Positions 20,047 to 41,100 of a DNA stretch of 42,759 nt are shown here, one piece after another (the stretch's first letter is position 1; every line of letters starts with the position of its first letter). The position numbers were made by a program, and so were the translations under genes. The stretch spans positions 1-42,759 of the forward strand of contig JAFGEO010000148.1 in the NCBI GenBank assembly GCA_016931575.1. The letters run 5' to 3'. Origin of the DNA: Bacteroidales bacterium (lineage in GTDB: Bacteria; Bacteroidota; Bacteroidia; Bacteroidales; UBA10428). The notes below the pieces were generated by a model. The model was not told the DNA's origin and made no database searches. It saw only the letters and a program-made list of their open reading frames with translations.

Positions 20047-22647
20047 ATGGATAATTCGACGCAAAAATTAAGGATGAAGGAGAAACTGGGCTATGGTTTT
20101 GGAGACCTCGCCTCTGTCCTTTACTGGCAGACCTTCATGCTCTATTTTACATATTTCTACACGGATGTCTTCCTGCTTCCTGCCGGGATAGCAGCCACCA
20201 TGTTCCTGATGAGCCGTCTCTGGGATGGCATAAACGATCCGATCATGGGAATGATTGCAGACCGGACAAAAACAAAATGGGGTAAATTCAGACCCTACCT
20301 TCTATGGCTTTGTGTACCTTTTGCCATATCAGGCGTGCTGGTCTTCACCACACCCGGATTTGGAATGACGGGGAAAATCATTTGGGCATACGCCACCTTC
20401 ATTCTGATCATGATGCTCTATACGGCCATTAACATTCCTTACACTTCGCTGCTGGGTGTTATTTCGGCCGACTCAAAAGAGCGCACCAAGGCATCCTCCG
20501 TGAAATTTATGTTCGCTTTTGCCGCAGGTATCATTATCTCGGCGACACTTCTTCCCATGGCCAAGTGGCTGGGTAAAGGTGATACCTCCATTATCGATGC
20601 CAAAATCGTCAATGACACCCTGATCATCCAGGAGAAGGATCAGGGAAGCGCACAGCTGGTTGTCTATGCTAAAGACCCTACTAACAATAAGGAAAAGCTT
20701 GAATTTGCCTTCACCGTGAATTCAGCCGATGACGTCCTCCCATCAGTTAACACTGAAGTCGCTCAAAATGAGTTAATTCTGACCCAGGGCTTTGGCAGTG
20801 CAGAGATCAATATTGAAGGCTATTTCATCAATCCCTCCAATAAGAAATTCAAATACAAAGCGGAAAGCCAGGATAAGAAAATTGCCACGGCAGAGCTTAA
20901 CGGGACCAGGCTCACCATCAGGGAGAAGAAAGCCGGAAATGTTGACATCAAGATCACGGCAAAAGACAGGCGGTGGGGCGAAACTTACCACACCCTGCAG
21001 GTCATCATAAACAAAGAAGGTAACTCTGCCCCTGTTTTGGCGGATCCTCAAGCTTTTAAGAATGCAGCTGGAGTGGAATTACCCACAGAACCCGTTGTTA
21101 TTGTTGTTGGGGCAGACAGTATCTATGAGTTTCAGACCATAGAACTTTGCGAAGGGTTTGGGACAAAGACGATCAGCCTTGCCGACTACCTGGAAACAGA
21201 TTCCGGCCTGATCTGCAGTTATAAGGCTGAAAGCTTTAACACCGACATTATTAACGCAATGGCTGATGGTTCGGACCTGATTCTTTCCGGAGATAAAGCA
21301 GGCATGGCTGCACTAAAAATAACCGCCACTGATCAGTACCTGCATGAAACGGACTATTACTTTAGTGCCAGCATAACTAAGAAATGGCTTGAACTTGACA
21401 AAAGTGATTCAAAATACTCCATTGATCTGGACCAGGTTTTCGAAGATCCTGATGACGATAAGTTAAGTTATAAGGTAGAAAGTAATAATAAGAAGATCAT
21501 CGCACCCAGCCTTGAGGGGTCAGTGCTATCGTTCCGCAAAAGTAAACTGGGAATAGCCACCCTTACCATTACGGCGATTGATAACAACGGGGGTCAGGTC
21601 AAACACGAGCTGGCTTGTATGATCTATGACAAAACAGACAATCCGCCCTTTATAGCCAGTACTATTGATAACCTTAAAACGAATGCAGGTTATAAAAGCC
21701 TTGAGATATCCCTGGCTGATAAATTCACCGATAAGGACGGTGAAAAGCTGACCTATGAAGTCAGTGTTATCAATCCTGCAAAGGGATGGCAGCGTGCCTG
21801 GATGATCTTCGGAATTGCTGCTATCATTTTCTTCCTGATCTCCTTTAAATCGACCAGGGAAAGGGTTACCCCGCCGAAGCAGCAAATAAGCTCCGTCAAG
21901 CAGGATCTTAAAGAACTTTTCACGAACCGCCCATGGCTTATTCTTCTGGCGACAACCATCACCTTTATTTTATTTGTAGCTGTCAGGGGGAGTGTTACCG
22001 TACATTATTTCAAGTATGTAATCGGAACGCAGGACCTGAAGCTTCCCTTCCTGGGCCTGCAAAGCTATGATTTTGAAACGCTGACTTCTGCTTACAATAC
22101 CATCGGACAGATTTCTTCCTTCCTGGGCGTACTGGTAATTGCCTGGTTTGCAAAGATCGTTGGCAAGAAGAAAGCTTTCATTTTAACCTTTATTGTTGCC
22201 ATCCTGAGCACGGGCATTATATACTTCCTGACTGCAGAGCAGCTGGGGCTTATCTTCTTTTTCCAGATCACAGGATCGATGACGGGAGGACCCTTAAGTT
22301 TCCTGATCTGGGCTATGTATGCCGATACCGCCGACTATGGCGAATGGAAGAACGGGCGTCGCTCAACCGGTTTGGTCTTCTCAGCATCTACCATGTCTCA
22401 AAAAATCGGTTGGGCCGTTGGTGCTTTTATTGCACTCAGCCTGATGTCGCAACTGGGCTTCCAGGCTAATGCGGAACAATCCCCTGATAGCCTGAAAGGT
22501 TTGCTCCTTCTGTTCACCCTGATCCCCGCTGCAATGGGTATCATCTCTACCCTTATCCTTCTGGTTTATCCTCTGAATGATAACCGGGTGGAAGAAATTG
22601 AAGGTGAACTTCTCGAGCGCAGAAAACTGGCGGATAGTGCTGAATAA
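20047..22647 (+). CDS. GPH-family cation/sugar symporter with periplasmic cadherin-like repeat insertion
   Basis: An 866-residue protein, nearly twice the ~450-480 usual for the MelB/GPH family of the major facilitator superfamily. Residues 1-175 are the first five helices, with GFGDLAS (17-23), FYTDV (37-41) and RLWDGINDPIMGMIADRTKTKWGKFRPYLLW (57-87), the GPH signature. Residues 579-866 are helices 6-12 (MIFGIAAIIFFLISF onward, and the GSMTGGPLSFLIWAMYADTADYGEW region typical of GPH carriers). Between them, ~179-578 is a soluble insert of cadherin/Ig-like repeats: a C-terminal half-repeat (179-226), three full repeats (227-326, 327-445, 446-532) and an N-terminal half-repeat (533-578). In MelB topology the helix 5-6 loop is periplasmic. 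It probably imports a disaccharide for the GH94 enzymes downstream, though a terminator separates them. Frame is unbroken. Confidence 0.88.
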   Translation: MDNSTQKLRMKEKLGYGFGDLASVLYWQTFMLYFTYFYTDVFLLPAGIAATMFLMSRLWDGINDPIMGMIADRTKTKWGKFRPYLLWLCVPFAISGVLVFTTPGFGMTGKIIWAYATFILIMMLYTAINIPYTSLLGVISADSKERTKASSVKFMFAFAAGIIISATLLPMAKWLGKGDTSIIDAKIVNDTLIIQEKDQGSAQLVVYAKDPTNNKEKLEFAFTVNSADDVLPSVNTEVAQNELILTQGFGSAEINIEGYFINPSNKKFKYKAESQDKKIATAELNGTRLTIREKKAGNVDIKITAKDRRWGETYHTLQVIINKEGNSAPVLADPQAFKNAAGVELPTEPVVIVVGADSIYEFQTIELCEGFGTKTISLADYLETDSGLICSYKAESFNTDIINAMADGSDLILSGDKAGMAALKITATDQYLHETDYYFSASITKKWLELDKSDSKYSIDLDQVFEDPDDDKLSYKVESNNKKIIAPSLEGSVLSFRKSKLGIATLTITAIDNNGGQVKHELACMIYDKTDNPPFIASTIDNLKTNAGYKSLEISLADKFTDKDGEKLTYEVSVINPAKGWQRAWMIFGIAAIIFFLISFKSTRERVTPPKQQISSVKQDLKELFTNRPWLILLATTITFILFVAVRGSVTVHYFKYVIGTQDLKLPFLGLQSYDFETLTSAYNTIGQISSFLGVLVIAWFAKIVGKKKAFILTFIVAILSTGIIYFLTAEQLGLIFFFQITGSMTGGPLSFLIWAMYADTADYGEWKNGRRSTGLVFSASTMSQKIGWAVGAFIALSLMSQLGFQANAEQSPDSLKGLLLLFTLIPAAMGIISTLILLVYPLNDNRVEEIEGELLERRKLADSAE

Positions 22648-23089: not shown

Positions 23090-25483
23090 ATGCAATACGG
23101 ATATTTCGACGATAAAAAAAGAGAATATGTCATTGAGCGCCCCGATACGCCGGAATCATGGAGTAATTACCTGGGATCAACTGAATATGGTGCTATTATC
23201 ACCAATAATGCCGGAGGTTACAGTTTCTTCAATTCTGCAGCTGACGGTAGGTTCATGCGTTTACGCCCCAATACGATCCCGATGGACCAGCCCGGAAGAT
23301 ATATCTACCTGCACGACCGCGACAGCAGGGACTACTGGTCGGCATCATGGCAGCCGGTAGGTAAACCGCTTGATCAATATAAAACCATCACCCGGCATGG
23401 AACAGCTTATACCATCATCGAATCGCAATACAAGGGTATCGAATCGGAAACCCTGTACTTTGTCCCCCTCGGGAAACATTTTGAATGCTGGCACCTGAAG
23501 CTTAAAAATACCGGCACCGGGAAACGCTCGCTACGCATGTTCACCTATGCAGAATATACTGGGCACTGGAACCTCTGGCTTGATATTGTCAATCTTCAGT
23601 ATACCCAATATATCATGGCCATGAAGGTCGTGAATGACATCATTGACCATGGCACCAATGTTAACCTCGGCTTTAATCCGGACAAACTTGAAGAAGGTGG
23701 ACAGGGACGTCATACCTTCATGGGAGTAGCAGGAGCCAAAATTAGCGGCTACGATACCGACCGCAAGAAGTTCATTGGACCCTATCGCTCCTATCACAAT
23801 CCCCTGGTTGTTGAACAAGGTGCCTGCACCAATTCCATAGCCACCAGTGATAACGGATGCGGAACCCTGCAGGTGGACATTGAACTTGAGCCCGGCGAAG
23901 AAAAAGAACTTACCATTGTCATGGGCTTCGGTACCGCAGGGGAACACGGGAAAAAAGCTGTGGCTGAATTCAGCAGGCCCGGGAAGGTCAGCGAAGAATT
24001 CACCAGGCTCCGCGATCATTGGCATGCCCGCATTGAAGGCATGACTGTTGAAACACCCGATGCAGAGTTGAACAGCATGCTTAATATGTGGAGCCCCTAT
24101 AATTGTCTGATCACCTATGCCTGGTCAAGAGCTGCCAGTCTGGTTTATAACGGGGAACGCAACGGACTTGGTTATCGGGATACCGTTCAGGATATCCTTG
24201 GTGTGCTTCATTCAATTCCTGAAGAAGCGATCGGGCGACTGGAACTCATGATCACCGGCCAGGAATCCACCGGAGGTGCAAAGCCTGTCATTAAACCCTT
24301 CTCACATAAGCCGGGCTGGGAAGAGCCCACTGCTGAGGAAGATTACCGGTCAGACGACTGTCTTTGGCTGTTTAACACAGTTCCTGCCTACGTTAAGGAA
24401 ACCGGAAAGATAGACTTCTTCAACAAGGTCCTCCCTTACACCGACAAAGGAGAAGCCACTGTCCTGGGCCACCTGCGCAGGGCAATCGAATTCAACCTGA
24501 ACCGGATGGGGGCTCACCAACTACCCTGCGGCCTCTTTGCCGACTGGAACGACTGCCTCGAATTAGGGCATCATGGAGAATCGATCTTTGTTACTTTTCA
24601 GCTACGCTATGCGCTGAGCACATATATTGAGATCTGCCAGCTACTAGGTAAACCCGATGAGATTGAATGGGCAAACCCGCTTCTGCAGAAACTGGACAAG
24701 CATATCGAAGAATACGCCTGGGATGGAGAATGGTACCTCAGGGCCTACCGTGAAGACGGGTTTAAATTCGGCTCAAAAGAATCAGACGAGGGTAATCTTT
24801 GGCTCAACCCACAAACCTGGTCCATCATATCAGGACATGCCGATGATGAGAAAGCCGGGAAAGTTTTGCAACAGATCAGGGACAATCTTTTTACTGAATA
24901 TGGTATTATGGTCTGTAATCCCCCCTACACGGAGATGGATGAAACCGTTATCAAAGCCACCCTTTTCAATCCGGGAACCAAAGAAAACGGAGGCATCTTC
25001 TGCCACACCCAGGGTTGGGCAGTCATGGCCGAAGCCATGCATGGCAATGGTAACCAAGCCTATAAATATTACAGGGCCTATCTGCCGGCAGCCTGCAATA
25101 CCAAGGCCGAAATTCGTGAAATTGAGCCCTATGTCTATTGCCAGTCCACCCACTCCACATACAGTCCGCGCTTCGGTGCTTCACGTCTTCCCTGGCTAAG
25201 CGGTGCTGCTACCTGGGCATTCTTCTCGGCATCTCAGTATATCCTTGGGGTAAGGCCCGGGTATGATGGGCTGACCATAGATCCATGTATCCCTTCGGAC
25301 TGGGACGAAATAAAAATCAATCGCCGGTTCAGGGGTAAGATGCTAAACATCACGGTAAAAAATCCTGACGGAAAAGAAAAAGGTGTGAAAAGCCTGACAA
25401 TCAATGGAATAAAACTGGAGAGCAACTTTATCCCCGTTTCTGAAATAAAGGGAGAAAATGAAGTAATGGTTATCATGGGATAA
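23090..25483 (+). CDS. GH94 disaccharide phosphorylase (chitobiose/cellobiose phosphorylase-like), copy 1
   Basis: A 797-residue cytoplasmic enzyme (no signal peptide) of GH94, usual length ~790-820. The N-terminal beta-sandwich begins MQYGYFDD..REYVI.RPDTP.SWSNYLGS and contains NNAGGYSFF and WS.SWQPVGKPLD; the (alpha/alpha)6 catalytic domain covers ~320-720 with GLGYRDTVQDILGVLH, YRSDDCLWL, and the catalytic acid Asp485 in ADWNDCLELG; a C-terminal sheet ends KGVKSLTINGIKL...VMVIMG. GH94 enzymes cleave beta-linked disaccharides with inorganic phosphate, releasing a sugar 1-phosphate. The N-terminal sequence resembles chitobiose phosphorylase more than cellobiose phosphorylase, but specificity cannot be settled (cellobionate or laminaribiose are alternatives). 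38 bases upstream of copy 2. Confidence 0.9.
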   Translation: MQYGYFDDKKREYVIERPDTPESWSNYLGSTEYGAIITNNAGGYSFFNSAADGRFMRLRPNTIPMDQPGRYIYLHDRDSRDYWSASWQPVGKPLDQYKTITRHGTAYTIIESQYKGIESETLYFVPLGKHFECWHLKLKNTGTGKRSLRMFTYAEYTGHWNLWLDIVNLQYTQYIMAMKVVNDIIDHGTNVNLGFNPDKLEEGGQGRHTFMGVAGAKISGYDTDRKKFIGPYRSYHNPLVVEQGACTNSIATSDNGCGTLQVDIELEPGEEKELTIVMGFGTAGEHGKKAVAEFSRPGKVSEEFTRLRDHWHARIEGMTVETPDAELNSMLNMWSPYNCLITYAWSRAASLVYNGERNGLGYRDTVQDILGVLHSIPEEAIGRLELMITGQESTGGAKPVIKPFSHKPGWEEPTAEEDYRSDDCLWLFNTVPAYVKETGKIDFFNKVLPYTDKGEATVLGHLRRAIEFNLNRMGAHQLPCGLFADWNDCLELGHHGESIFVTFQLRYALSTYIEICQLLGKPDEIEWANPLLQKLDKHIEEYAWDGEWYLRAYREDGFKFGSKESDEGNLWLNPQTWSIISGHADDEKAGKVLQQIRDNLFTEYGIMVCNPPYTEMDETVIKATLFNPGTKENGGIFCHTQGWAVMAEAMHGNGNQAYKYYRAYLPAACNTKAEIREIEPYVYCQSTHSTYSPRFGASRLPWLSGAATWAFFSASQYILGVRPGYDGLTIDPCIPSDWDEIKINRRFRGKMLNITVKNPDGKEKGVKSLTINGIKLESNFIPVSEIKGENEVMVIMG

Positions 25484-25521: not shown

Positions 25522-27912
25522 ATGCAGTACGGATATTTTGATGATGCGCGAAAAGAATATGTAATTACCAGGCCCGACACGCCTAAATCATGGAGTAATT
25601 ACCTGGGATCAACCCGGTATGGTGCAATAATCACCAATAATGCAGGAGGATACAGCTTCTTTCACTCCTCCGCACAGGGCAGGTTTTTACGCTTGCGGTT
25701 TAATGCTGTACCCCTTGATCAGCCAGGCAGGTATCTCTATTTTCACGATCGTGAAAGCAGGGACTACTGGTCAGGGTCCTGGCAACCCGTTGGGAAACCC
25801 CTTGACCGGTACAAGTCAGAATGCCGGCATGGTTCAGCCTATACCATCATCAGTTCAGAATATTCAGACATTTCGAGCGAGACCCTCTATTTCGTTCCCA
25901 TGGGGAAGGATTTTGAGTGCTGGAGAGTAAGGGTGAGCAACAAAAGTAACAAGAAGAGGTCACTGAGAGCCTTTACCTACGTTGAGTTTGCATCCAACTG
26001 GAATGCACTCGACGATATGAACAACCTTCAATATACCCAGTATATAATCAAAACTGATTTTACAGACGGCATCGTTGATCATGGTTCCAATGTTTTCATT
26101 CCTGCCCAGCCCGGTAATTTCGAAGAAAAAGACCAGGCCCGGCATACCTTTATTGGTGTAGCAGGAGCAGAGGTCAGCGGATTCGACTCATGCCGTGAAG
26201 ATTTTATCGGACCCTACCGTACCTATTCAAATCCAGTCGTTGTAGAGCAGGGAGCCTGCAAGAATTCTCTTACAGAAGGGGATAACGGATGCGGGACGCT
26301 GCAAATCGACCTGGATCTCGAACCAGGGGAAACCCGCGAATTCACAATAATTCTGGGCATTGGGGAAGCCCGTAAAGAGGGTAAAGCCGCCATTGCTGAG
26401 TTCACCGCTCCCGGAAAAGTAGAGGAAGCTTTCGTAGCGCTTCGCAACTACTGGCATTCGCGGATCGAAGGGCTAAGCGCCCGGACCCCGGATCCGGACT
26501 TCAACAGCATGATCAATATGTGGAACCCCTTCAACAACCTGATCACCTATGCCTGGTCGAGGGCTGCCAGTCTGGTATACAGCGGAGAACGAGATGGGCT
26601 GGGGTACCGGGACACCGTTCAGGACATGATCGGGGTACTACACAATATTCCTGATGAAGCCGGAAAGCGCCTTGAACTTATGATTACCGGCCAGGCATCA
26701 ACGGGAGGTGCCCTGCCTGTGGTGAAGCCTTTCGCACATACCCCGGGAAAAGAAAAAGCTCCCCAGGAGTCGGAATACCGCTCCGATGATAGCCTGTGGC
26801 TCTTTAATACCGTTCCTGCTTTTGTGAAAGAAACCGGAGACCTGGAATTTTACAATAAAGTACTTCCCTATGCTGATCAGGGCGAAGCTACCGTGTTGGG
26901 GCACCTGCGCCGTGCTATCGAGTTCAACCTGGAACGAAGCGGTACACATGGTCTTCCGTGCGGACTGGCAGCCGACTGGAATGACTGCCTGGTTCTGGGA
27001 CAAAAGGGGGAAACCGTTTTTGTATCCATGCAATTGAGGTATGGGCTGAAAACTTATATCGGGATTTGTGAGATGCTCGGCAAACCTGAGGAAGTACGCT
27101 GGGCAAGCAAAGAACTTGCTGGCCTGGATGAAAACATTGAAAGACATGCCTGGGACGGAGAGTGGTACCTGCGGGCCTATCGTCACGACGGACTGAAATT
27201 TGGTTCGAAAGAAAATGAAGAAGGCAGTATTTACCTGAATCCCCAGTCCTGGTCGATACTCAGCGGCCACGCCCGGGGAGAGCGTATAGCTCAGGTGCTG
27301 GAACAAGTGGATAAATACCTGGCCACCGATTATGGAGTTGCCCTGTGTGACCCTCCTTATGAAAAAACGGAACACTCCGTTGTAAAAGCCCCCTTGTTCA
27401 ACAAGGGAATGAAGGAAAATGCAGCCATTTTCTGCCATACCCAGGGATGGATTGTCATGGCCCAAACCCTGGCAGGGAATGGTGATAAGGCTTATCAGTA
27501 TTACAGAAATTACCTTCCTTCGGCATTTAATGAGCGTGCAGAGATCCGGGAAACGGAACCCTATGTTTATGCACAATCAACGAACAGTCGCTACAACATG
27601 CGGTACGGATCCTCCAGGAACCCCTGGCTAAGCGGAACAACCACCTGGGCTTACTATGCTGCCGCTCAGTATATTCTGGGCATTCAGCCCGATTATGGCG
27701 GACTGATCATCGATCCCTGCATCCCGGCAGCCTGGAAAGGCTTTACAGCCGAAAGAATTTTCCGGGGAAAAAAGATCAGTATCCGGGTTGAAAATCCGAA
27801 CGGCTCACAAAAAGGAGTGAAGAGTCTTGAGCTCAATGGCGAAAAACTGGAGGGGAACTACATCCCTGTCGCCAGTCTGAAAGAAGAAAACACTTGCATT
27901 GTTTTACTCTAG
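25522..27912 (+). CDS. GH94 disaccharide phosphorylase, copy 2
   Basis: A 796-residue paralog of the preceding enzyme, colinear throughout: 41 of the first 47 residues are identical and the catalytic Asp falls at the same position (Asp485 in ADWNDCLVLG). The GLGYRDTVQD, YRSDDSLWLF and WLSGTTTWAYYAAAQYILG blocks are conserved. No signal peptide, so cytoplasmic. Divergence is greatest in the loops around residues 165-215 and 275-310 and near the acceptor-side segments, which suggests that the two copies differ in acceptor or chain-length preference rather than being redundant. Same-strand, 38-base gap after copy 1, so one operon. The hybrid kinase follows 90 bases later. Confidence 0.9.
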   Translation: MQYGYFDDARKEYVITRPDTPKSWSNYLGSTRYGAIITNNAGGYSFFHSSAQGRFLRLRFNAVPLDQPGRYLYFHDRESRDYWSGSWQPVGKPLDRYKSECRHGSAYTIISSEYSDISSETLYFVPMGKDFECWRVRVSNKSNKKRSLRAFTYVEFASNWNALDDMNNLQYTQYIIKTDFTDGIVDHGSNVFIPAQPGNFEEKDQARHTFIGVAGAEVSGFDSCREDFIGPYRTYSNPVVVEQGACKNSLTEGDNGCGTLQIDLDLEPGETREFTIILGIGEARKEGKAAIAEFTAPGKVEEAFVALRNYWHSRIEGLSARTPDPDFNSMINMWNPFNNLITYAWSRAASLVYSGERDGLGYRDTVQDMIGVLHNIPDEAGKRLELMITGQASTGGALPVVKPFAHTPGKEKAPQESEYRSDDSLWLFNTVPAFVKETGDLEFYNKVLPYADQGEATVLGHLRRAIEFNLERSGTHGLPCGLAADWNDCLVLGQKGETVFVSMQLRYGLKTYIGICEMLGKPEEVRWASKELAGLDENIERHAWDGEWYLRAYRHDGLKFGSKENEEGSIYLNPQSWSILSGHARGERIAQVLEQVDKYLATDYGVALCDPPYEKTEHSVVKAPLFNKGMKENAAIFCHTQGWIVMAQTLAGNGDKAYQYYRNYLPSAFNERAEIRETEPYVYAQSTNSRYNMRYGSSRNPWLSGTTTWAYYAAAQYILGIQPDYGGLIIDPCIPAAWKGFTAERIFRGKKISIRVENPNGSQKGVKSLELNGEKLEGNYIPVASLKEENTCIVLL

Positions 27913-28002
27913 TTGGTGAAAAACTTTGCTTTGTAAACTTCACTCAAAATGATTACCTTGGGTCATATTGCCGACTCATTTGCCCGGAAGTGCATACCAA
28001 AT

Positions 28003-31000
28003 ATGACTAGAATATTCCCTTTTTTCAGTACCTGTTTGCTCTTGCTGATGCTCATTTCGGTTCCTGAATCGGATGCTCAGAATAAGCAATACATGTTCAC
28101 CAATGTGAATAAGGAGAAGGGTTTGTCTCATAATAAGGTTACCTGCTTTCACAGGGATCAGAAGGGTTTCATCTGGATTGGAACTGACGATGGCCTGAAT
28201 CGTTACGATGGATATGACTTCAAGACCTTCAGCCATGATCCGGATGATCCCGGATCACTTCGCAGTTCGGAAATCAGCTTCCTGACAGAAGATCATCTTG
28301 GACGTATCTGGGTAGGTGCGGGAATAAACCTGGACATACTCGATCCGGAAACGGAAAAGATCATTCATGCGGATACCATTTTTAACGGGAAGTTAAGTTT
28401 CGAACCAAATACCCGATGGGATCTTCATTGTGATAAGTATGAAAATTACTGGTTCAATAGTTCGTTTCAGGGTTTATTCCGGTATTACATTGAACAGGAC
28501 TCCCTGGTAAAGCTGCTGAATTCGGACAATGTAGTCTATTTCAACCAGGCCTACAGGATTTGCAGTATTGCTGAAGATTCAAACGGAGATATCTGGGCAA
28601 TTGACAACAGGGGCCTTATTCAAAAAATTGAAAACCAGACAAACAGGATTGTCGACAGCATCCGTATCACACCTACTATCGATAATGATTTCAGTCTGTT
28701 TATTGATAGCGATGACGATCTCTGGATTTATGACCTGAATAATCCTTTTGGAATTATCTATATAGCTTTTCAAAGTCGTGAAATTTATCATCTGAACACC
28801 CAATCAGCGAAATGCACCCTTAGCAGCGAAGCTGTTACAGGATGTCTTGAGAACGACCCTGGAGAAATCTGGATTTTAACAGATCATGGTGGCCTCAACA
28901 TCATTAACAAAAGTGACTTCAGTGTCCGCTACATCAAACATGATCCGCTCAATAACAGGAGTATCGTCGACAATGTAGTGATAGCATCCTATAAAGATGA
29001 AACAGGAATTATCTGGCTGGGGACCTACAAGGCCGGGTTCAGCTATTATCATGACGAAATGTTTCATTTCCCCCACTATAAAATAAAGCTCGATAAAGAT
29101 GCCCCACCTGAGATCAATGACATTGATAATTTTGCAGAAGATAAAAAAGGTAACCTCTGGATTGCCACTAATGGAGGCGGTCTGATCTATCTCGACAGGG
29201 CAACCGGCAGGTATACCCGGTATCATCATGATCCAAATGATCCCAATAGCATCAGTGCTGACGTTATCGTCGGGCTGACTATCGATAGCAGGGGCAATTT
29301 GTGGGTAGGTACCTATCTTGGCGGAATGAATCTCTTCGACGGGAAAAAATTTACTCGCTTTAATAATGACAGTGGCAATCCGCACAGCCTTACAGATAGC
29401 AGGATTTGGGATATACATGAGGACAGGGACGGAAATATGTGGATTGTCACCCTGATGGGCGGGGTGAATGTGATGGATCCTGATACAAAAAAGGTGACCG
29501 AAGTATTTCAGTGGGATAGCGATTCTTCGATTCGCTCCACCATTGTACTGACAATAATAGAGGATCGCACCGGCCTTCTATGGTTTGCCACGGTTGACGG
29601 GATCAGATCCTATAACAGGGAAACCCGAAAATTTGAGTATTACGAGAATGTCCCGGCTGACCCTACATCACTTAGTAACAACTGGACATTTGAAATCTTC
29701 GAAGATTCCCGCGGCCTGATTTGGGCCGGAACAAGCAGCGGCCTGAACCTGCTAAACCGGGAAACAGGTAAGTTTCAGCGATTTTACAAGAAAGATGGCC
29801 TGCCCTCCGACCGTATCCTGAATGTACTTGAAGACCACGACTCTACAATGTGGATCAGTACGCCGGATGGTATTTCAAGGGGCGAAGTAAGCTATAATAA
29901 AAAAACAAAACTCTATAAGTGTAAATTCACGAACTATGACCGGTACGACGGGTTACAGGGAAATGAATTCAATGAAAAGGCAACCCTGAGAACCTCAAAA
30001 GGGGAGATCATTTTAGGGGGCAGGAACGGATTTAACATCTTCTATCCGGACCAGATAAGACGTACCAGGGTTGAACCAAATATTCAATTCACCAATTTCT
30101 CAGTGTTCAACCGCTCACTGTCTGCCGGTGATAAACTTAACAACAGGATTCTTCTTAACGAAGATATTTCCTACACCAGTCGTATTGAACTGGATTATTC
30201 AGAGAATATGTTCACCCTTGAGTTTTCAAACCTGAGTTATTTGTATCCGGAAAGGCATCGGTACCAGTATAAACTTGAAAATTTCAACAGCGATTGGTTG
30301 GAAGCCAATAGCAAAAACCGGAGGATTAGCTATACCAACCTTGATCCCGGGACCTATATTTTTAAAGTTCGGGGATCGTATCCGGATGGAACCTGGAGTG
30401 AGAAATATAAGCAGATCATTATTGTTATCAAGCCTCCTTTCTGGAAAAAATGGTGGTTCAGGATCCTTGCCGTCCTTATCGTCCTCCTGGTCACCTCAGC
30501 ATTGTTTTACTTCCGCCTGAAGTCGCTGCGCCAACAGAAAATAATCCTTAAAAAAGCGGTGAAAGAACGCACAATCGAGCTTGAAGAGATCAACCAGGTG
30601 CTTGAAGAACGCCAGGAAGAGATCTCCCTCCAGAATGAGGAACTTGATTACCATAGGAACGAACTCCAAAAACTGGTTGATGAAAGGACTTCCGACCTGC
30701 AGAAAGCCCTCGAAAAGGCTAAGGAATCAGACCGGCTTAAATCAGCCTTCCTGGCAAATATGAGCCATGAGATCCGCACCCCTATGAATGCAATTGTCGG
30801 ATTTTCCAATTTGCTTCGGGATGATGTTATGGAAGTTGATCTGAAAAACAGCTATATCGACATCATTGAGAAAAACTGCAATGCCCTTCTGGTGATCATC
30901 AATGACATCCTTGATATTTCAACCATTGAGGCCAATCAGCTGTCCATTGCGTCAAATCCTTTTGATATCATTGACACTTTCAAGGACTTGCACGAAACCT

Positions 31001-31839
31001 ACCAGCTCCGTAAAGAAAAACTGGAAATGCGGCTTAGGCTGCCTGAAAACAGGGAGCATCTCATTATCAACCACGATGAGATCCGCATCAAACAGATCAT
31101 GCAAAACCTGATTGATAATGCACTAAAATTTACCGATCAGGGATTTATTGAGTATGCTCTTGATTATAGAAATAATGAGCTCTCCATAAGCGTACAGGAT
31201 ACCGGCATTGGCATTAATCCCAACGCCCTCAGGATGATCTTTGAACCCTTCATTAAGGCCCAGGAGAATGAAAACCGGTTTTATTCAGGAACCGGACTGG
31301 GACTGGCTATCTGCAAAAAAATCATCGACCTGATGGGAGGTGAAATTCAGGTTGAATCCGAGCCCGGACACGGTACTATCTTCCGCGTAAATATCCCGGC
31401 CGAAGAACTTGACCAAATCCTCAGCACTCCAAGCTCTGACGAGACCATAATACAAGCTGAAGGCAGCTTCGACATCCTTATTGCAGAAGATGAAGAAGCC
31501 AATTTTAAGCTTATCGGGCAAATTCTGCGTAAGACCAACGTCAGACTAACATGGGCAAAAAACGGAAAGCAGGCTATAGAATACATGAAGGAAGATCCAT
31601 ACAAGTACAGGATGATCCTGATGGATATCAAAATGCCATTGGTTAATGGTATCGATGCGTTCGAGGCCATCCGGGAGATCAACCATATCGTACCCGTTAT
31701 TGCTGTAACAGCCTATGCCAATGAAAAAGAGAAAGTTGCCCTTATGAAGAAAAAGTTTTCTGCATACATTTCAAAACCCATCAATATTAAAGACTTGGGG
31801 GATATGTTTGAAAAGTTCCTGGGCCGTAAAATTATATGA
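28003..31839 (+). CDS. Hybrid histidine kinase with periplasmic beta-propeller sensor, no DNA-binding domain
   Basis: A 1278-residue protein from the ATG at 28003, chosen because it starts a clean signal peptide (MTRIFPFFSTCLLLLML...); an in-frame ATG at 27949 adds 18 residues that spoil it. Domains: two-component regulator propeller repeats ~30-735 (repeated G.IWIGT..GLN.YD), Y_Y_Y domain ~740-805, one membrane helix ~815-838, coiled coil ~840-905, HisKA with phospho-His922 (NMSHEIRTPMN), HATPase with N box QNLIDNALKF (~1036), G1 DTGIGI (~1066) and G2 GTGLGLAI (~1097), then a receiver domain with Asp1208 and Lys1258. It resembles Bacteroides hybrid two-component sugar sensors but ends at the receiver; the AraC-type output domain is absent, so a separate phosphotransfer partner or regulator is needed. 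It probably senses the substrate of the transporter and phosphorylases. Confidence 0.9.
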   Translation: MTRIFPFFSTCLLLLMLISVPESDAQNKQYMFTNVNKEKGLSHNKVTCFHRDQKGFIWIGTDDGLNRYDGYDFKTFSHDPDDPGSLRSSEISFLTEDHLGRIWVGAGINLDILDPETEKIIHADTIFNGKLSFEPNTRWDLHCDKYENYWFNSSFQGLFRYYIEQDSLVKLLNSDNVVYFNQAYRICSIAEDSNGDIWAIDNRGLIQKIENQTNRIVDSIRITPTIDNDFSLFIDSDDDLWIYDLNNPFGIIYIAFQSREIYHLNTQSAKCTLSSEAVTGCLENDPGEIWILTDHGGLNIINKSDFSVRYIKHDPLNNRSIVDNVVIASYKDETGIIWLGTYKAGFSYYHDEMFHFPHYKIKLDKDAPPEINDIDNFAEDKKGNLWIATNGGGLIYLDRATGRYTRYHHDPNDPNSISADVIVGLTIDSRGNLWVGTYLGGMNLFDGKKFTRFNNDSGNPHSLTDSRIWDIHEDRDGNMWIVTLMGGVNVMDPDTKKVTEVFQWDSDSSIRSTIVLTIIEDRTGLLWFATVDGIRSYNRETRKFEYYENVPADPTSLSNNWTFEIFEDSRGLIWAGTSSGLNLLNRETGKFQRFYKKDGLPSDRILNVLEDHDSTMWISTPDGISRGEVSYNKKTKLYKCKFTNYDRYDGLQGNEFNEKATLRTSKGEIILGGRNGFNIFYPDQIRRTRVEPNIQFTNFSVFNRSLSAGDKLNNRILLNEDISYTSRIELDYSENMFTLEFSNLSYLYPERHRYQYKLENFNSDWLEANSKNRRISYTNLDPGTYIFKVRGSYPDGTWSEKYKQIIIVIKPPFWKKWWFRILAVLIVLLVTSALFYFRLKSLRQQKIILKKAVKERTIELEEINQVLEERQEEISLQNEELDYHRNELQKLVDERTSDLQKALEKAKESDRLKSAFLANMSHEIRTPMNAIVGFSNLLRDDVMEVDLKNSYIDIIEKNCNALLVIINDILDISTIEANQLSIASNPFDIIDTFKDLHETYQLRKEKLEMRLRLPENREHLIINHDEIRIKQIMQNLIDNALKFTDQGFIEYALDYRNNELSISVQDTGIGINPNALRMIFEPFIKAQENENRFYSGTGLGLAICKKIIDLMGGEIQVESEPGHGTIFRVNIPAEELDQILSTPSSDETIIQAEGSFDILIAEDEEANFKLIGQILRKTNVRLTWAKNGKQAIEYMKEDPYKYRMILMDIKMPLVNGIDAFEAIREINHIVPVIAVTAYANEKEKVALMKKKFSAYISKPINIKDLGDMFEKFLGRKII

Positions 31840-32087: not shown

Positions 32088-34730
32088 ATGAATAAAAATT
32101 TACTCCAAAAAGAAAAACTTTCATCCAGGCTGGCTGGCTACGCCCTGACCGGTGGAGCGTTATTGGCTGTTGGCTCGGTTGCATCCGGACAGGTTAATTA
32201 CTCCGGAATACAGAATCTCCCGGTAACAGATCCAATAAATCCGGTTGAACTTGACCTGGATGGTGATCTGCATGCTGATTTTGCCTTTGGTCTGGCATTA
32301 ACCAGTACCTATTGGAATAATTATTCAAGTTATAACAGTGCTTTCATTATGGCTTCATCCGGCACCTACCAGAACAGTTGGGTAGGTATCAGCATGAATA
32401 TTGCCATTCCTGAAGAAACTATAGTCTTCACATCAAATTATTTTACTGATAATCGGGTCTCCTATTGGAACCTCGGGTTCGCGATGGTATTTTCCACAAG
32501 TTCGTACGGGACTCCGGCCGGCTCTTTCGCAGGACAGGGAGATAAGATTTTAGGTGTGAAATTTTATATCGGCAGTGAGCTGCACTACGGGTGGATCCGC
32601 ATAAATATCCCCGCAGAAGTAAACACAATAACTATCATTGACTGGGCTTATGATGAAACTCCGGGGCGGGGTATCAAAGCAGGTGCCATGGTGGAAAGCT
32701 CTGATGTTACAGGACCGGTTGTTACGATGGTTCCGGATGTTCTTCCAAGGACAAATATCCAGACTACCACAATTGCTGTGAGCATTGATGAAAAGCCTCA
32801 TGGAATACTGGATATATCAGATTTTACAGCTGTAAATGGTATTCTCGACGGCCTGATCCAAACAACTGATACGAGCTATGATCTTACTGTTACAGCAGAA
32901 GTTCATGGTAATGTTCAGGTATCCCTGAATCCCGGAGTGCTAACAGATTACCTTTTAAATTCGAATAGCGGCACCACTATTAACTGGTTCTACGATAACA
33001 GGCCACCCGTCACAACCATGAACCTGGCTGCGGGTGCCCTTAATAACCTTTCATCGCTTTCAGCCAGTCTTGTATTCGATGAAGAAGTGATCGGTCTGGC
33101 AGTATCGGATTTTGTACTGACCAATTGTATCATCACAAGTCTGACTGAAGATGTCGCCAACAAGGAATATACCCTTGAGCTTGACCTACTTGCTGAGGGT
33201 CCTGCAAGCATTGTACTCCCAGCTGCAAGTGTTGTCGATTACGGAAACAATCCCAATTTAGAGGCTACAGTAAGCTGGGAATATGATGGTACTGTTCCCA
33301 CTCACAGTTTCAGCAGAGGATTTAACTATATCACAGCTGAAGAAACTGTTCTGATGACCATAGACTTCAGTGAGGAAATTCAGGAGTTGGTTGCTGAAGA
33401 TTTAACCATTGAAGGAGCTACCATCGCCAACATTACCGAGAATACAGCAGGATTAAGCTATGATATACAACTCACCCATATCACAGAAGGGATGATCACC
33501 TTGCAGCTGGATCCGGGCAGCGTTCTCGACCTTGCCGGCAATGCGGCAACCGGAGGATCAACCAGTTGGTACTACGACATCACTGCACCTGTGCTCAGCA
33601 TTGATATCCCGGTCACCAGGACAAACAGTGATACTGCAATGACAATACAGATCAATGCGGACGAGCTTGTTTCCGGTCTGACCCTTGATGATATCATTGT
33701 GACCAATGGTACAGCATCGAACCTGGTCGTTGTGCCGGTTGATAAAGGAATGCCATCTCCGGAAAGTGCAAGTTATCGTGTAGATATAACCCCCATTGCG
33801 GAAGGTGAGGTCAGCATTGAAATCCCCGCTGATGCAGTATATGACAACGCAGGAAATACAAACTCAGCAGCCAGTGCGAGCTACATTTACGACCTGACTG
33901 GCCCAACGCCATCCATGACGGCTGGTTCATCTGAGCTTTCCAACAATGAAACCGGGCAGTTAACGATTACCTTCGACGAGCCGGTTACCGGATTGTCTGC
34001 AGATGCCTTCGTCATTACTAACGGTACAGCAGGTTCACTGACTACCTTGACAGAGGGAACCGAATACAAGCTGGATGTGAACGTAAGCGATCAGGGCATG
34101 GTGGTTGTCGAGCTTCCTGCGGGGGCAGTAGCTGACGAAGCTGGTAACCTGAGTGTTGCTGCCGCAACAGTTGCCTGGACGTACGATGGCATAGCACCTA
34201 CGGCCAGCCTTTCCAGCGGACTCACAGAGCCCACTGAAGAGCTTATACTTACCATTACCATCGACTTCAATGAAGAAGTTGAAGGATTAGCTCTCGATGA
34301 TTTCAACCCTACCAATGGAACTGTCAGCAACCTGGTTGAAGTTACAGCCGGCCTGTCATACACCCTTGACATCACTGCTACCGCCGCCGGTGAAGTAAGT
34401 GTTGAATTAGCAGCAGGTGCTGTAACAGATGCTGCAGGAAACAAGAATGCTGCTGCATCAGTAAGTTACACATATGAACCTAATGTTGCGGTCAACATGA
34501 TAACCGACCTGCAGGTGAAGCTGTATCCTAACCCTGCCAGCGAGGCGCTGAACGTGGAACTTGACAGGGCTGCTACCCTTTACATTACCGATGTAAATGG
34601 CAGGATTGCCATGGTGAAAGAAGAAGTGCTTTCTGAGCGCTTCGACATCAGCACACTGCCTTCAGGAATGTACATCCTCAGCATTGAAACGGAAGCTGGC
34701 ATAGCTGTAAGGAAATTCGTTAAGGAATAA
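32088..34730 (+). CDS. T9SS-secreted protein with six Big_12-like repeats
   Basis: An 880-residue protein. The N-terminus has a long signal region (ALTGGALLAVGSVASGQ), then a ~170-residue beta-rich domain (VNYSGIQNLPVTDPINPVELDLDGDLHADFAF begins it, GWIRINI near its end). From ~205 to ~800 are six repeats of ~95-105 residues of the type 'P…V..ITF.E.V.GL…DF…TNGT..NL…Y…I…A.G.V.V.L.A.AV.D.AGN…A…W.YD', i.e. bacterial Ig-like (Big_12) modules. The last ~75 residues (KLYPNPASEALNVEL… ending RKFVKE) are a T9SS type A sorting domain. It should be displayed on or released from the surface, as an adhesin or matrix component. Own terminator follows. Confidence 0.87.
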   Translation: MNKNLLQKEKLSSRLAGYALTGGALLAVGSVASGQVNYSGIQNLPVTDPINPVELDLDGDLHADFAFGLALTSTYWNNYSSYNSAFIMASSGTYQNSWVGISMNIAIPEETIVFTSNYFTDNRVSYWNLGFAMVFSTSSYGTPAGSFAGQGDKILGVKFYIGSELHYGWIRINIPAEVNTITIIDWAYDETPGRGIKAGAMVESSDVTGPVVTMVPDVLPRTNIQTTTIAVSIDEKPHGILDISDFTAVNGILDGLIQTTDTSYDLTVTAEVHGNVQVSLNPGVLTDYLLNSNSGTTINWFYDNRPPVTTMNLAAGALNNLSSLSASLVFDEEVIGLAVSDFVLTNCIITSLTEDVANKEYTLELDLLAEGPASIVLPAASVVDYGNNPNLEATVSWEYDGTVPTHSFSRGFNYITAEETVLMTIDFSEEIQELVAEDLTIEGATIANITENTAGLSYDIQLTHITEGMITLQLDPGSVLDLAGNAATGGSTSWYYDITAPVLSIDIPVTRTNSDTAMTIQINADELVSGLTLDDIIVTNGTASNLVVVPVDKGMPSPESASYRVDITPIAEGEVSIEIPADAVYDNAGNTNSAASASYIYDLTGPTPSMTAGSSELSNNETGQLTITFDEPVTGLSADAFVITNGTAGSLTTLTEGTEYKLDVNVSDQGMVVVELPAGAVADEAGNLSVAAATVAWTYDGIAPTASLSSGLTEPTEELILTITIDFNEEVEGLALDDFNPTNGTVSNLVEVTAGLSYTLDITATAAGEVSVELAAGAVTDAAGNKNAAASVSYTYEPNVAVNMITDLQVKLYPNPASEALNVELDRAATLYITDVNGRIAMVKEEVLSERFDISTLPSGMYILSIETEAGIAVRKFVKE

Positions 34731-35512: not shown

Positions 35513-36377
35513 ATGCTTTTCAATACCCTCCCATTTGTCATTTTTCTGCCGCTGGTAATCATTTTATATTACTTCATACCACATAAATACAGGTGGATTT
35601 TGCTCCTGGCTGCCAGCTACTACTTTTACATGTGCTGGAAAGTCAGTTATATATTCCTGATCATTGCCTCCACGCTGATAGATTACCTGTGCGGGATACT
35701 CATGGAGAGGCAGAAAGTAAGGAAAAAGAAGATCCCTTATCTTGTCCTGAGTCTGATCATTAATCTTGGATTACTGTTTACGTTTAAATATTTCAACTTC
35801 TTTACAGGAGCTGCCAATTCATTCCTTCATAGTATCAACTTCGGATATCAATTACCTGTATTGGAGAAATTCCTTCTGCCGGTGGGTATTAAATATTTCC
35901 GCTGTGTTCATTATCAGCTGTTTATGGCATGGCGCCAACTGGACTTTCATCGTCTGGGGAACACTATTTGCCATTGTCTACCTGACGGAGAAAGCATTGA
36001 ATACCCTGTTTAGAATCAACAGGGAAGCCGCACCATATTCTGTATGGCACATCCTCCTGGTCCTTAAAACTTTCATTCTTGTCACCTTTATCTGGGTATT
36101 TTTCAGAAGTCAGAGCATAATGGATGCCCTGCAATTAGGCAAGCATATCCTGATTCCCGGCAACCAGGTAACCACCCGGCTGGAGGTTCCTGTTCTAACC
36201 TGGGCACTCCTCGGTATTTTTATACTCAGTGATATCCTACTCTATAACAAGCGCTTTGACAGCTGGATCGGAAAAATGCCCCTGTTGCTGCGCTGGAGTA
36301 TTTATACCCTCATTATTTTTACCATAATCGTTTTCTCAGGAGTGGAAAATTTCCCCTTCATATATTTTCAATTTTAG
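35513..36377 (+). pseudogene. MBOAT-family O-acyltransferase, internally deleted and frameshifted
   Basis: The first ~126 codons (from ATG 35513) are the N-terminus of an AlgI-like MBOAT (MLFNTLPFVIFLPLVIILYY… to LLPVGI at 35890). The C-terminus, with the invariant His in SCLWHGANWTFIVWG and then ~140 residues of membrane helices to F-IYFQF, is present in another frame from about 35892. The ~200-residue middle of a 470-520-residue MBOAT, normally containing SFYTFQTLSY and the PQLVAGPI region, is missing at the junction. In the original frame the reading stops at 36013. It is therefore inactive in this assembly, unless the gap is a misassembly. The partner SGNH-like gene starts four bases after the stop. 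Confidence 0.85.
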
Positions 36378-38135: not shown

Positions 38136-41100
38136 CTATTGCTTCACTATGCGGAACGACCGGATTTGAATGTTGTCCTCGGCTATCAGGTTATAAATCC
38201 CGGAGGGCAACTGGCCAATATCCATCCTGAGCTGGTTTTCAGCATTCATTTCAGCTGAAGACATGGTCAGCAGGACATGACCTGCCATATCCACCAGTGT
38301 CAGGTTAAGGATGCTGTGTCCTGATCTGTAGCTATCCAGAAAAACATAATCAGTTGCCGGATTGGGGTATACCCTGAAAGGTTCTGGATCTTCTGCTTCA
38401 CTTACGCTCAGGACTTCCTCTTCTACTGTCACGGTAAAATTAACCCTGGTCTGTTTTCCCCAGATATTGGTTGCACTGACTTCGACATTACCCATTCCTT
38501 TGCTGGCGGGATAAAGAACGAGGATATGATCTTCGTTAATATAATAATCCAGCAGCATTGCATCTGTACAGGAGGCTGAGAAATCCAGGTTATGACCCTG
38601 GCTATCCGAGAAGTATTCAGTTAAATCAATGATCTCAGGATCCAAACCCAGGTAGAGTATCCGGTCTTCGGGTTCAGCAATCACCTGTGGAGCCGGCGGA
38701 AGGATCGCTTCAGCCAGGATCGTCCGTTTCAGCCGGATATGGTTTATCGAGTAGCAGTTGATGTACATATCGACTGAGTCAGGTCCGGCTATAATCGGGT
38801 TGTAAAGAATCACCAGCCTGACACTATCACCCGGAACCAGGATCTTATTCTCAAGTACGGTTTCAAAGGATGAACTCTCAATGCTTACCTTATCGACGGA
38901 AAGTATTCCGGGCCCATTGTTCACCAGGTAAGAAGTATCTCTCAGAACGGAACCAATGGTTGCCTTGCCGATAAAAGAAATGTGATTATAACCAATCTGA
39001 TCTGATTCTATAACTTCCAGGTAAACAGGAATAACAAGTTCGGGCTTTTGTATGTCATTGCTGAGAATACGAATGGAAGATCGGTAGGTACCTGCTGTTA
39101 ACTCCACTGCAAAGGCCTGAAAGGTAAGGGATGCGGAAGACCTGGGATCAAGACGCAGCGATTCGGTATAGGTGCTGATCATCTCATATTCCGGGATAGC
39201 AACCTGGACCTGTGCCTTTTCCAGCTCAATTCTGAAATCAAGAATACCTGCTGAATCAAGGTTGGAGACCGTCAGATTGAAATAGTCCATGGTCCCGCTA
39301 ACCAGGGATACCTTAATTGTATCCATGTTTATCTGTATGGCGGGTGAAGGTAAAACCGTCAGGGTTTTAACCAGGGTATCCGTTCCGGAACAATTGGAAA
39401 CATACAGCATAATTTCTTTGGTTCCCGGAGTGCTGAATGCATGAGCAGGGTTTTGCTGTTCAGAGTTGCTGCCATCTCCAAAACTCCAGTTCCATACGAG
39501 GGGTATATTGGCAGACAGATCCGAAAACTCCACTGCCTGGTTAAGGGCCGGCAGGGTGTCCGAAATACTAAAATCAGCAAAAACAGCCTGTGGATCCTCA
39601 TTATTTTCAAGATAGACGAGACCTTCATAGCTTATGCTATCAGCTTGATTACAGGTATTTAATCCTGTTGCCACCAGGCTGACAGTATAAACACCGGCAT
39701 TTTCATAAGTATGCAGGGGATTCTCCTCACTGCTTGTATTTCCATCACCGAAAGTCCAGTAATATTCAGCTGCATTTTCACTACGATTCAGAAACTCAAC
39801 ACTGGCGGGTGATGTACATGCCAGATTCCCCGAAGCAGAGAAATTTGCAATTACCCTTCCGCTAAAGGCTTCTCCAACACCTACGGCATACCAGGCATTG
39901 GTAACTGCTTCAACTTCCGGGGAGCAGGCTCCGTATAGATCAGCGGCCGACTGGATTGAGAAAAAGCGGGCATCTTCATAATCAGAAAGGGGAGTCAGGT
40001 AAACTGTCAGATTCCTGTATGCGATGGCCGCAGCCCTCTCGATACCTATCCCCTGAACACTAAAAGAATGACCAAGATCGTTGATTCCTGTACCCCCTTC
40101 AGCGAGCAGGTAGAACCAGTGGTTCTGCACACCGTTATTGGTATGTACACCTCCGTTATCGGCTGTTCCGGTAACCCAGTAAGCTCCTTTATAAGTATCC
40201 GGGTGTTTACAGGCTTTAGGATCAATCATATTCCTGACTGGTTTACCAAGGGTAGAAAACTGTTCACCAAGAAAATAGTTGGCAGTAGTCGCATCTGTGT
40301 AGAAATCAATTGCCACAGCGAAAATATCACTAAAAGATTCATTCAGGGCTCCCGATTCGCCTTCATATTCCAGTCCTGCGCTATACTGTGTTACCGCATG
40401 GGTATACTCATGGGCCACAACATCCAGTGTAGTCAGTGCTGTATAGAAAACACCATCGCCATCACCGAAGACAAATGTATTGCCGTTCCAGAAAGCATTT
40501 GTAACACCTTCTCCGAAATGTATATAACTGCTTATATCAGCTCCCTGATTGTCAAACGAATTTCTTCCGAACCGTGACGAATAATAGTCAAAGCTTTGCA
40601 AAACAGCAAAATGTGCGTTGGTAGCCGCATTGTCCTGGTTAGCCTGTTCATTCCAGAAATTGTCGTCATCCCTGAAATCGACTGCCTGTGAAAAATTGGT
40701 TCCTGTATTTAAATCCAGGGTAGAAATATTCACCCCCCTCGATTCATCCCTGAGGATGTAGCCATAACTGTCTGATTCGGTATTTATCAGTTGTGTTCCC
40801 TCATACAGGGTGACTGCTTCCCCAACCTGATTCAGGTCATGGAGTCGGTCTGTTTTCTTCAGGATTGAACCATCCATGGCATCAACATACACAAAATACC
40901 GGGAGAATGGTTCCCTGGCAAAAACATCAAGTTTATAGGCCAGGAAGGATGCATTCGCAAGCGGAAGGATCACCAATTCGGGAGCATCGGTTTTAACACC
41001 ATTTCCGTCAGTATAATATTCTGATGCTCCGATATACTTACGAGCCTGATTCAGAGCCATAACAGAAGAAATTGCCGGCCGGATATCTTTAATACTAACC

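Follow-up and report, generated by a model that had tools for sequence, protein, structure and literature searches.

A GPH sugar symporter from Bacteroidales with a probably permuted immunoglobulin-like module in its periplasmic helix 5–6 loop

The question raised by this locus is how a sugar carrier can hold about 400 residues of soluble repeats in the middle of its membrane core, and what such repeats might be for. The carrier is encoded in a 42,759-nt stretch of Bacteroidales DNA, analysed as a whole and here called the window, by a single uninterrupted ATG frame (Table 1). Its product scores 370.3 bits against the GPH model TIGR00792 in the NCBIfam search, well above the cut-off of 231.35, which places it among the GPH symporters, presumably TC 2.A.2. 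Pfam MFS_2 matches the 866-residue protein with 297 bits in two stretches, the best of them covering residues 15–177, MFS_1 is found at residues 579–793, MelB aligns to residues 8–180 and 624–859, and a Foldseek search with the core of the AlphaFold (AF2) model returns MelB and MFSD2A.

The last MelB residue aligned ahead of the break is 175, three past Gly172, which a MelB study places in "periplasmic loop5-6" (PMC8437787), indicating that the insert sits in the periplasmic loop between helices 5 and 6, as the first-pass annotation had proposed. The cation site given there for MelB (D55, N58, D59 and T121) corresponds in the alignment to D60, N63, D64 and T126, and all four residues are identical. 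At the sugar site the MelB residues K18, D19, D124, W128 and R149 are replaced by S23, V24, N129, T133 and F154, i.e. all five compared residues differ (W342 lies outside the comparison), indicating that the substrate is probably other than melibiose; this mismatch informs the substrate and not the family membership. The protein thus has the 12-helix core, the cation-site residues and the full GPH score (MFS_2/TIGR00792) in common with the MelB and YagG symporters, but where MelB has a short helix 5–6 loop it holds about 400 residues. Judged from its sequence, it is a GPH sugar:cation symporter with predicted cation-coupled uptake and with an insert at about residues 180–577, which agrees with the earlier description of two GPH halves parted by soluble repeats at about 179–578 within one frame. 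Third-position GC is slightly lower in the insert (0.50) than in the N-terminal (0.57) and C-terminal (0.55) halves.

Table 1. Features of the symporter gene and of related genes in the window.
Feature	Position	Strand	Evidence
GPH (MFS_2) sugar:cation symporter ORF, 866 aa, insert in helix 5–6 loop	20047..22647	+	Pfam, NCBIfam, MelB alignment
GPH core helices 1–5, residues 8–176	20068..20574	+	MelB alignment, AF2 helices
Probable base-domain half B, residues 181–231, strands 4–7 of Ig-like repeat, profile 44–93	20587..20739	+	AF2, repeat HMM
Intact repeat unit 2, residues 240–327, with Trp310 of "WGE" hairpin	20764..21027	+	Repeat HMM, alignment
Low-confidence linker, residues 331–362	21037..21132	+	AF2 pLDDT <50 at 343–362; absent from the other 14 aligned rows
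Extra intact repeat unit 3, residues 363–443	21133..21375	+	Repeat HMM; absent from aligned three-unit relatives
Intact repeat unit 4, residues 448–533	21388..21645	+	Repeat HMM
Probable base-domain half A, residues 534–576, strands 1–3, profile 2–44	21646..21774	+	AF2, repeat HMM; last strand stops one residue before helix 6
Helices 6–12 and C-terminal tail, residues 577–866	21775..22644	+	Pfam, AF2, MelB alignment
GH94 phosphorylase, downstream neighbour	23090..25483	+	Pfam
Second GH94 phosphorylase	25522..27912	+	Pfam
Single repeat of the transporter-insert family in the T9SS-tagged M4 protease	38418..38690	-	Repeat HMM

The insert does not consist of four whole repeats. The repeat HMM, which was derived from 18 intact repeats in nine other loci and leaves out the window, matches the symporter in five pieces, at residues 179–228, 240–327, 363–443, 448–533 and 534–576, with 240 bits summed. 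The first piece is a half-repeat (profile positions 44–93), followed by three whole repeats and by a second half-repeat (profile 2–44); at the level of sequence the insert is three whole repeats flanked by two complementary half-repeats, out of register with its own ends. When the two halves of the window protein, A and B, are rejoined they score 69 bits as a single domain with the repeat HMM. With leave-one-out profiles half B matches from profile position 46 to 90–95 and half A from 4–14 to 42–44 in nine of nine loci, and in the same nine the rejoined halves score 46–73 bits as one domain, against 11–40 (A) and 23–36 (B) when apart, so that the rejoined ends score as one domain in all ten loci tested (the window and the nine leave-one-out loci). 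In four loci the insert is one unit long, and its rejoined ends score 30–36 bits whereas the natural order gives two fragments. Shuffled rejoined ends (2000 made, 1922 reported) reach at most 13 bits with the same HMM.

The lengths of the inserts are close to whole numbers of repeats, with 93–94 residues in the four one-unit loci, 285–291 in the three-unit loci and 398 in the window; the measurement took 14 of 16 loci, missing L041 and L045, whose alignment gaps are 286 and 285. Between the halves there are no whole repeats in four loci, two in eleven and three in the window. The copies are related by descent, and the near-integral length is therefore an independent observation only at the origin and at two changes of unit number, to one and to four.

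The AF2 model of the window protein (25-row alignment, mean pLDDT 77.8, pTM 0.69) shows each whole repeat as a seven-strand sandwich, three strands and then four by DSSP, an order also seen in the model of L039. Four strands follow helix 5 (183–225) and three precede helix 6 (543–575). The pLDDT is 87–91 at residues 181–220, 74 at the rim (221–230) and 82–89 at 541–580, with 76–92 in unit 2 and 75–88 in unit 4, while the extra unit 3 has 48–75 and most of its linker stays under 50. Modelled alone, the three-unit insert of L039 gives a pLDDT of 83 and a pTM of 0.72, with 86–93 at its residues 21–60 and 88–90 at 261–300. Taken together, pLDDT, sequence and strand count suggest that halves A and B pair. 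We regard it as very likely that the insert is a permuted Ig/cadherin-like module whose halves form one base domain, and the domain that shuts the loop is probably a single Ig fold cut in two by helices 5 and 6.

Foldseek matches the insert to cadherins and Ig tandems, in line with the cadherin-like repeats named in the first-pass annotation, and the fold is thus common to the two; superposition of three domains on cadherins gives an rmsd of about 20–30 Å, however, indicating that the modelled insert is no extended, straight cadherin rod. A Pfam search of the window symporter finds no Ig or cadherin family above its gathering score, the nearest being Y_Y_Y with 25.2 (cut-off 26.6) at residues 261–321 and Big_2 with 16.1 (cut-off 22.8), and the rejoined bases of the window protein and L039 likewise have no Pfam match above gathering score. 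Among nine inserts of profile A2 members, weak Cadherin_4 matches are seen in three (best E 6e-4) and weak Big_9 matches in four (best E 2e-3). Pfam search and AlphaFold model, both proposed earlier as checks on the insert, thus yield seven-strand sandwiches with no family above gathering score. The motifs DPDGD and NNPP in the insert are, we assume by analogy only, suggestive of cadherin-like calcium binding between repeats.

In the arrangement we propose, halves A and B would fold into one base domain resting where helices 5 and 6 reach the periplasm, and the whole repeats would make up a closed loop above the N-terminal bundle. The permutation would then answer a geometric difficulty: the two termini of an ordinary Ig domain lie at opposite poles, but the end of strand 3 adjoins the start of strand 4, and there the domain could be joined into a short loop between adjacent helices.

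Further loci were collected by a genome scan (68 loci), a relatives search (60 genomes) and a search of the order. Twelve distinct loci have the three- or four-unit form, namely the window, L038–L045, L067 (cut by the contig end), L106 and L167, and four have the one-unit form (L074, L077, L078 and L080) with the insert at the same residues as in the larger ones; L009, L010 and L012 carry the same inserts as L038, L039 and L043 and are not counted twice. The one-unit carriers are all from Bacteroidales, three of the four from ruminant gut samples according to their titles, whereas the title of L077 gives no such source. The recurrence bears on the possibility, raised with the first annotation, that the long frame is an assembly chimera or a frame artefact. 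The window does come from a draft assembly of 168 contigs, but the junction recurs in six differently named metagenome projects (Zod, GH49, AS22, CSSed, RGIG and UBA) and in L067, which is not labelled a MAG, and together with the near-integral lengths and a dN/dS below 1 (see below) this argues against chance or misassembly, so that an artefact is extremely improbable. Profile A2 picks out the carrier with insert in 4 of the 393 genomes searched for the order and in 4 of the 23 for the family; in the phylum the window's genome is the single case among 395, and the order around L067 has one among 128. These counts refer to the three- and four-unit form since the one-unit forms fall under those search thresholds. 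Most other matches in the phylum and order are long frames whose examined stretch contains few hydrophobic segments or none, some with T9SS cargo-like ends.

The three- and four-unit form is rare, and its frequent loss or movement would also suit a dispensable decoration, i.e. a folding-competent passenger under weak selection that is tolerated in the loop and gained or lost without much consequence. The distribution is patchy, and the best core trees require five changes of insert state among 46 rows (12 with and 34 without insert), four of them forced by well-supported branches, and six among 86 rows (15 with and 71 without), five of them so forced; the trees are unrooted and the changes do not separate gain from loss. 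A single clade of insert-bearing rows was rejected by the AU test with p 9e-6 (46 rows) and p 3e-35 (86 rows), for a group that was named post hoc and has long branches. Identity between inserts follows that between cores moderately (rho 0.58 over 45 pairs), but in the 20 closest of these pairs the inserts are 0.36–0.47 identical where the cores are 0.68–0.85, which is in line with a decoration. On the other hand, dN/dS is below 1 in all seven of the eleven pairs with unsaturated dS, at 0.07–0.42 in the insert and 0.02–0.09 in the core, indicating that selection keeps the insert, if loosely; six of these seven pairs are among four related loci, and the other four pairs are dS-saturated. The near-integral repeat number and the presence of another permuted Ig domain in the same loop of other carriers (see below) also speak against a passenger, and we consider this explanation unlikely, though one to be reckoned with.

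The core of L167 is at most 50% identical to that of any other row and has the same permuted three-unit insert, whereas insertless carriers reach 75.5% core identity to the window protein. Two insertless carriers, L048 and L051, have a longer helix 5–6 loop with the sequence VINEAKG, which resembles the last residues of the insert and may be a deletion scar. We read the insert as old, lost and probably transferred several times, and a single origin of the window-type insert (class A) followed by losses and gene transfer is possible.

The genes around the carriers suggest what is transported. The first annotation had noted that GH94 genes adjoin the symporter and had asked whether the architecture recurs next to such genes, and this is borne out, since a GH94 or GH130 gene is found in the flanking DNA examined of nine of the twelve three- and four-unit loci (the window, L038–L041, L043, L044, L106 and L167), with GH130 named by Pfam for some members and by a shared sequence cluster for others. 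In L167 the neighbour of 809 aa matches the two GH94 proteins of the window with 1159 and 1186 bits, and L043 (by Pfam) and L044 (by cluster) additionally encode a member of the GlcNAc 2-epimerase family. No GH94 or GH130 gene was found in the flanking DNA examined of L042, L045 and L067, the contigs of L045 and L067 being shorter than 4 kb. The two GH94 genes of the window form a tandem of 797 and 796 codons with N-termini that are alike. Judging by these neighbours, the likely substrates of the transporter are beta-linked disaccharides resembling cellobiose or mannobiose, taken up for phosphorolysis in the cytoplasm. A GPH carrier and a GH94 enzyme occur in one cellulase gene cluster of a rumen bacterium, where, according to that report, GH94 activity was undetected under the conditions used (PMC5831590).

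The insertless homologs have a GH94 or GH130 gene in the examined flank in 28 of 31 cases, which together with their core identity to the window protein supports an accessory role for the insert, and homologs this close indicate that it should be separable from transport; transport itself would probably proceed without it. The function we prefer, tentatively and by analogy, is that of an accessory, dispensable and fast-evolving docking platform. The module would keep near the mouth of the carrier a partner that is periplasmic or linked to the outer membrane, for instance a glycosidase or the sugar intake of the outer membrane. The analogy is with the peptide transporters PepT1 and PepT2 (SLC15, POT), also MFS carriers with Ig-like domains in an external loop. 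According to their structural study, PepT2 without these domains retains its KM, so that its module can be separated from transport, trypsin is bound by the Ig domains of both carriers, and clustering with a partner is proposed (PMC4597091). They belong to another MFS family and carry the insert between helices 9 and 10 rather than 5 and 6, and in that study the module is described as two tandem Ig-like folds with a short loop after strand 8, whereas in the window carrier one domain would be split around the membrane core. As a whole, the explanation by a split Ig module that serves for docking on an importer of beta-disaccharides is the best we have, and we hold it at a little under an even chance.

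The second-ranked function after docking is sugar capture, suggested by the single tryptophan of unit 2, in which the repeats would bind the incoming oligosaccharide and concentrate it at the carrier mouth in the manner of a carbohydrate-binding module. Trp310 belongs to the hairpin that ends unit 2 (..DxxWGE..) and is conserved in 11 of the 12 three- and four-unit loci, this hairpin should lie near the base domain, and most of the loci are disaccharide-utilisation loci. Against it, no Pfam carbohydrate-binding family is found in the window protein or the nine A2 inserts, mean identity among these nine inserts is 33–39% by segment, and the one-unit form is without unit 2. Beyond this tryptophan no conserved binding face or partner was found for the insert, which weighs against the docking platform. 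Capture is the next best function and in our judgement improbable.

A role in signalling, where the module would touch the periplasmic Y_Y_Y region of the hybrid two-component (HTCS) sensor encoded downstream (27949–31839) and so couple transport to induction, was also considered, since the HTCS gene comes after the GH94 pair and the insert has the weak Y_Y_Y similarity mentioned above. However, the flanks contain a gene of the HTCS cluster in 2 of 11 loci with the insert and in 3 of 31 without it, to which phmmer adds the insertless L084 and L081; there is no association between insert and sensor, and this role is very unlikely.

Matches from the relatives search with longer frames gave two further classes of carriers with an insert in the same loop. 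Class B (L187, L188, L224 and L225) has a permuted Big_9 Ig domain of 121–125 aa in the helix 5–6 loop, which scores 37.0, 39.4, 42.3 and 35.5 bits respectively when rejoined, over Big_9 profile positions 4, 4, 9 and 13 to 88, and 22.4, 26.0, 34.7 and 29.8 bits in natural order, over positions 42, 39, 42 and 42 to 88, with a cut-off of 23.6. The A half contributes 6–15 bits, and three of the four natural-order stretches pass the cut-off by the second half already. The cores of class B match the halves of the window protein with 160–181 bits per half, compared with 315–326 (N) and 450–461 (C) for the GH94-linked L046, L047 and L057. Class C comprises seven GPH carriers (L189–L191 and L226–L229) with an insert of 87–92 aa, and the two of them that were scanned have no Pfam match above cut-off. 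Comparison of profiles among classes A, B and C finds no kinship, with small alignments and a highest probability of 13% that comes from the shared helix 6 flank, whereas the positive control, the window-type repeat against its own half-domains, reaches 97.6%. Class B carriers thus have the loop and the permutation in common with the window protein and an insert that is not detectably related by profile. In 80 genomes of the order, 5 of about 51 places matched by MFS_2 (a hand count) are split at the helix 5–6 loop. Another GPH carrier of the window's genome, L192 (G000 C122), with a frame of 561 aa, carries some 70 additional residues close to its last helices (about 434–506) and not between helices 5 and 6.

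The helix 5–6 loop of GPH carriers may then be a repeated landing site where at least two permuted Ig families were installed independently, each split at an inner loop with the membrane core inside, and where extra repeats would close into a ring above the carrier mouth and recruit a partner in the periplasm, as a bacterial parallel to the clustering of PepT1 with trypsin. The small alignments and the weak Big_9 matches to four of nine A2 inserts (best E 0.0018) lower the odds for two independent families, and we consider this general picture possible but doubtful.

The anatomy of the insert is well supported, and its interest comes from the split-domain design and from the apparent recurrence with another Ig family. 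The permuted register with split ends, the series of one-, three- and four-repeat forms and the other inserts in the same GPH loop go beyond what was first described for this gene. Searches of open-licence papers listed none whose title or opening of the abstract reports an Ig insert in a bacterial MFS carrier; the authors of the PepT1 and PepT2 study present theirs as the first structure to show a domain placed inside the core of a transporter (PMC4597091). Bacteria appear to have placed at least two forms of Ig domain in a single loop of a sugar carrier, permuted on each occasion. This suggests a natural way of building a domain whose termini lie far apart into a narrow loop of a membrane protein, and the existence of close carriers with and without the module allows a direct test of its purpose.

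The repeat family is also found outside the carriers. When the frames of the window are searched with the repeat HMM, the M4 protease matches once, with 32 bits (E 2e-10), at residues 1003–1093 of its 1186-aa frame; the first annotation had seen the shared repeat core, at about 930–1020, a shift that is probably due to a different start codon. This copy belongs to the same family as the transporter insert but consists of a single complete repeat with the usual register. The same repeats also occur in long proteins of Bacteroidota, which are of secreted type without a membrane core and several of which have T9SS-like ends; these proteins or the M4 protease of the window are a possible source of the transporter module.

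Two other regions of the window were noted. At 35513–36377 on the plus strand two overlapping frames of 166 and 203 aa, which we take to be membrane acyltransferase-like, resemble the two ends of one gene with a frame change and perhaps a missing middle, i.e. a pseudogene or an assembly fault; no Pfam family matches the 166-aa frame. Immediately downstream of the HTCS gene, at 32088–34730 on the plus strand, is a gene for a T9SS-tagged protein with six Big_12 stretches.
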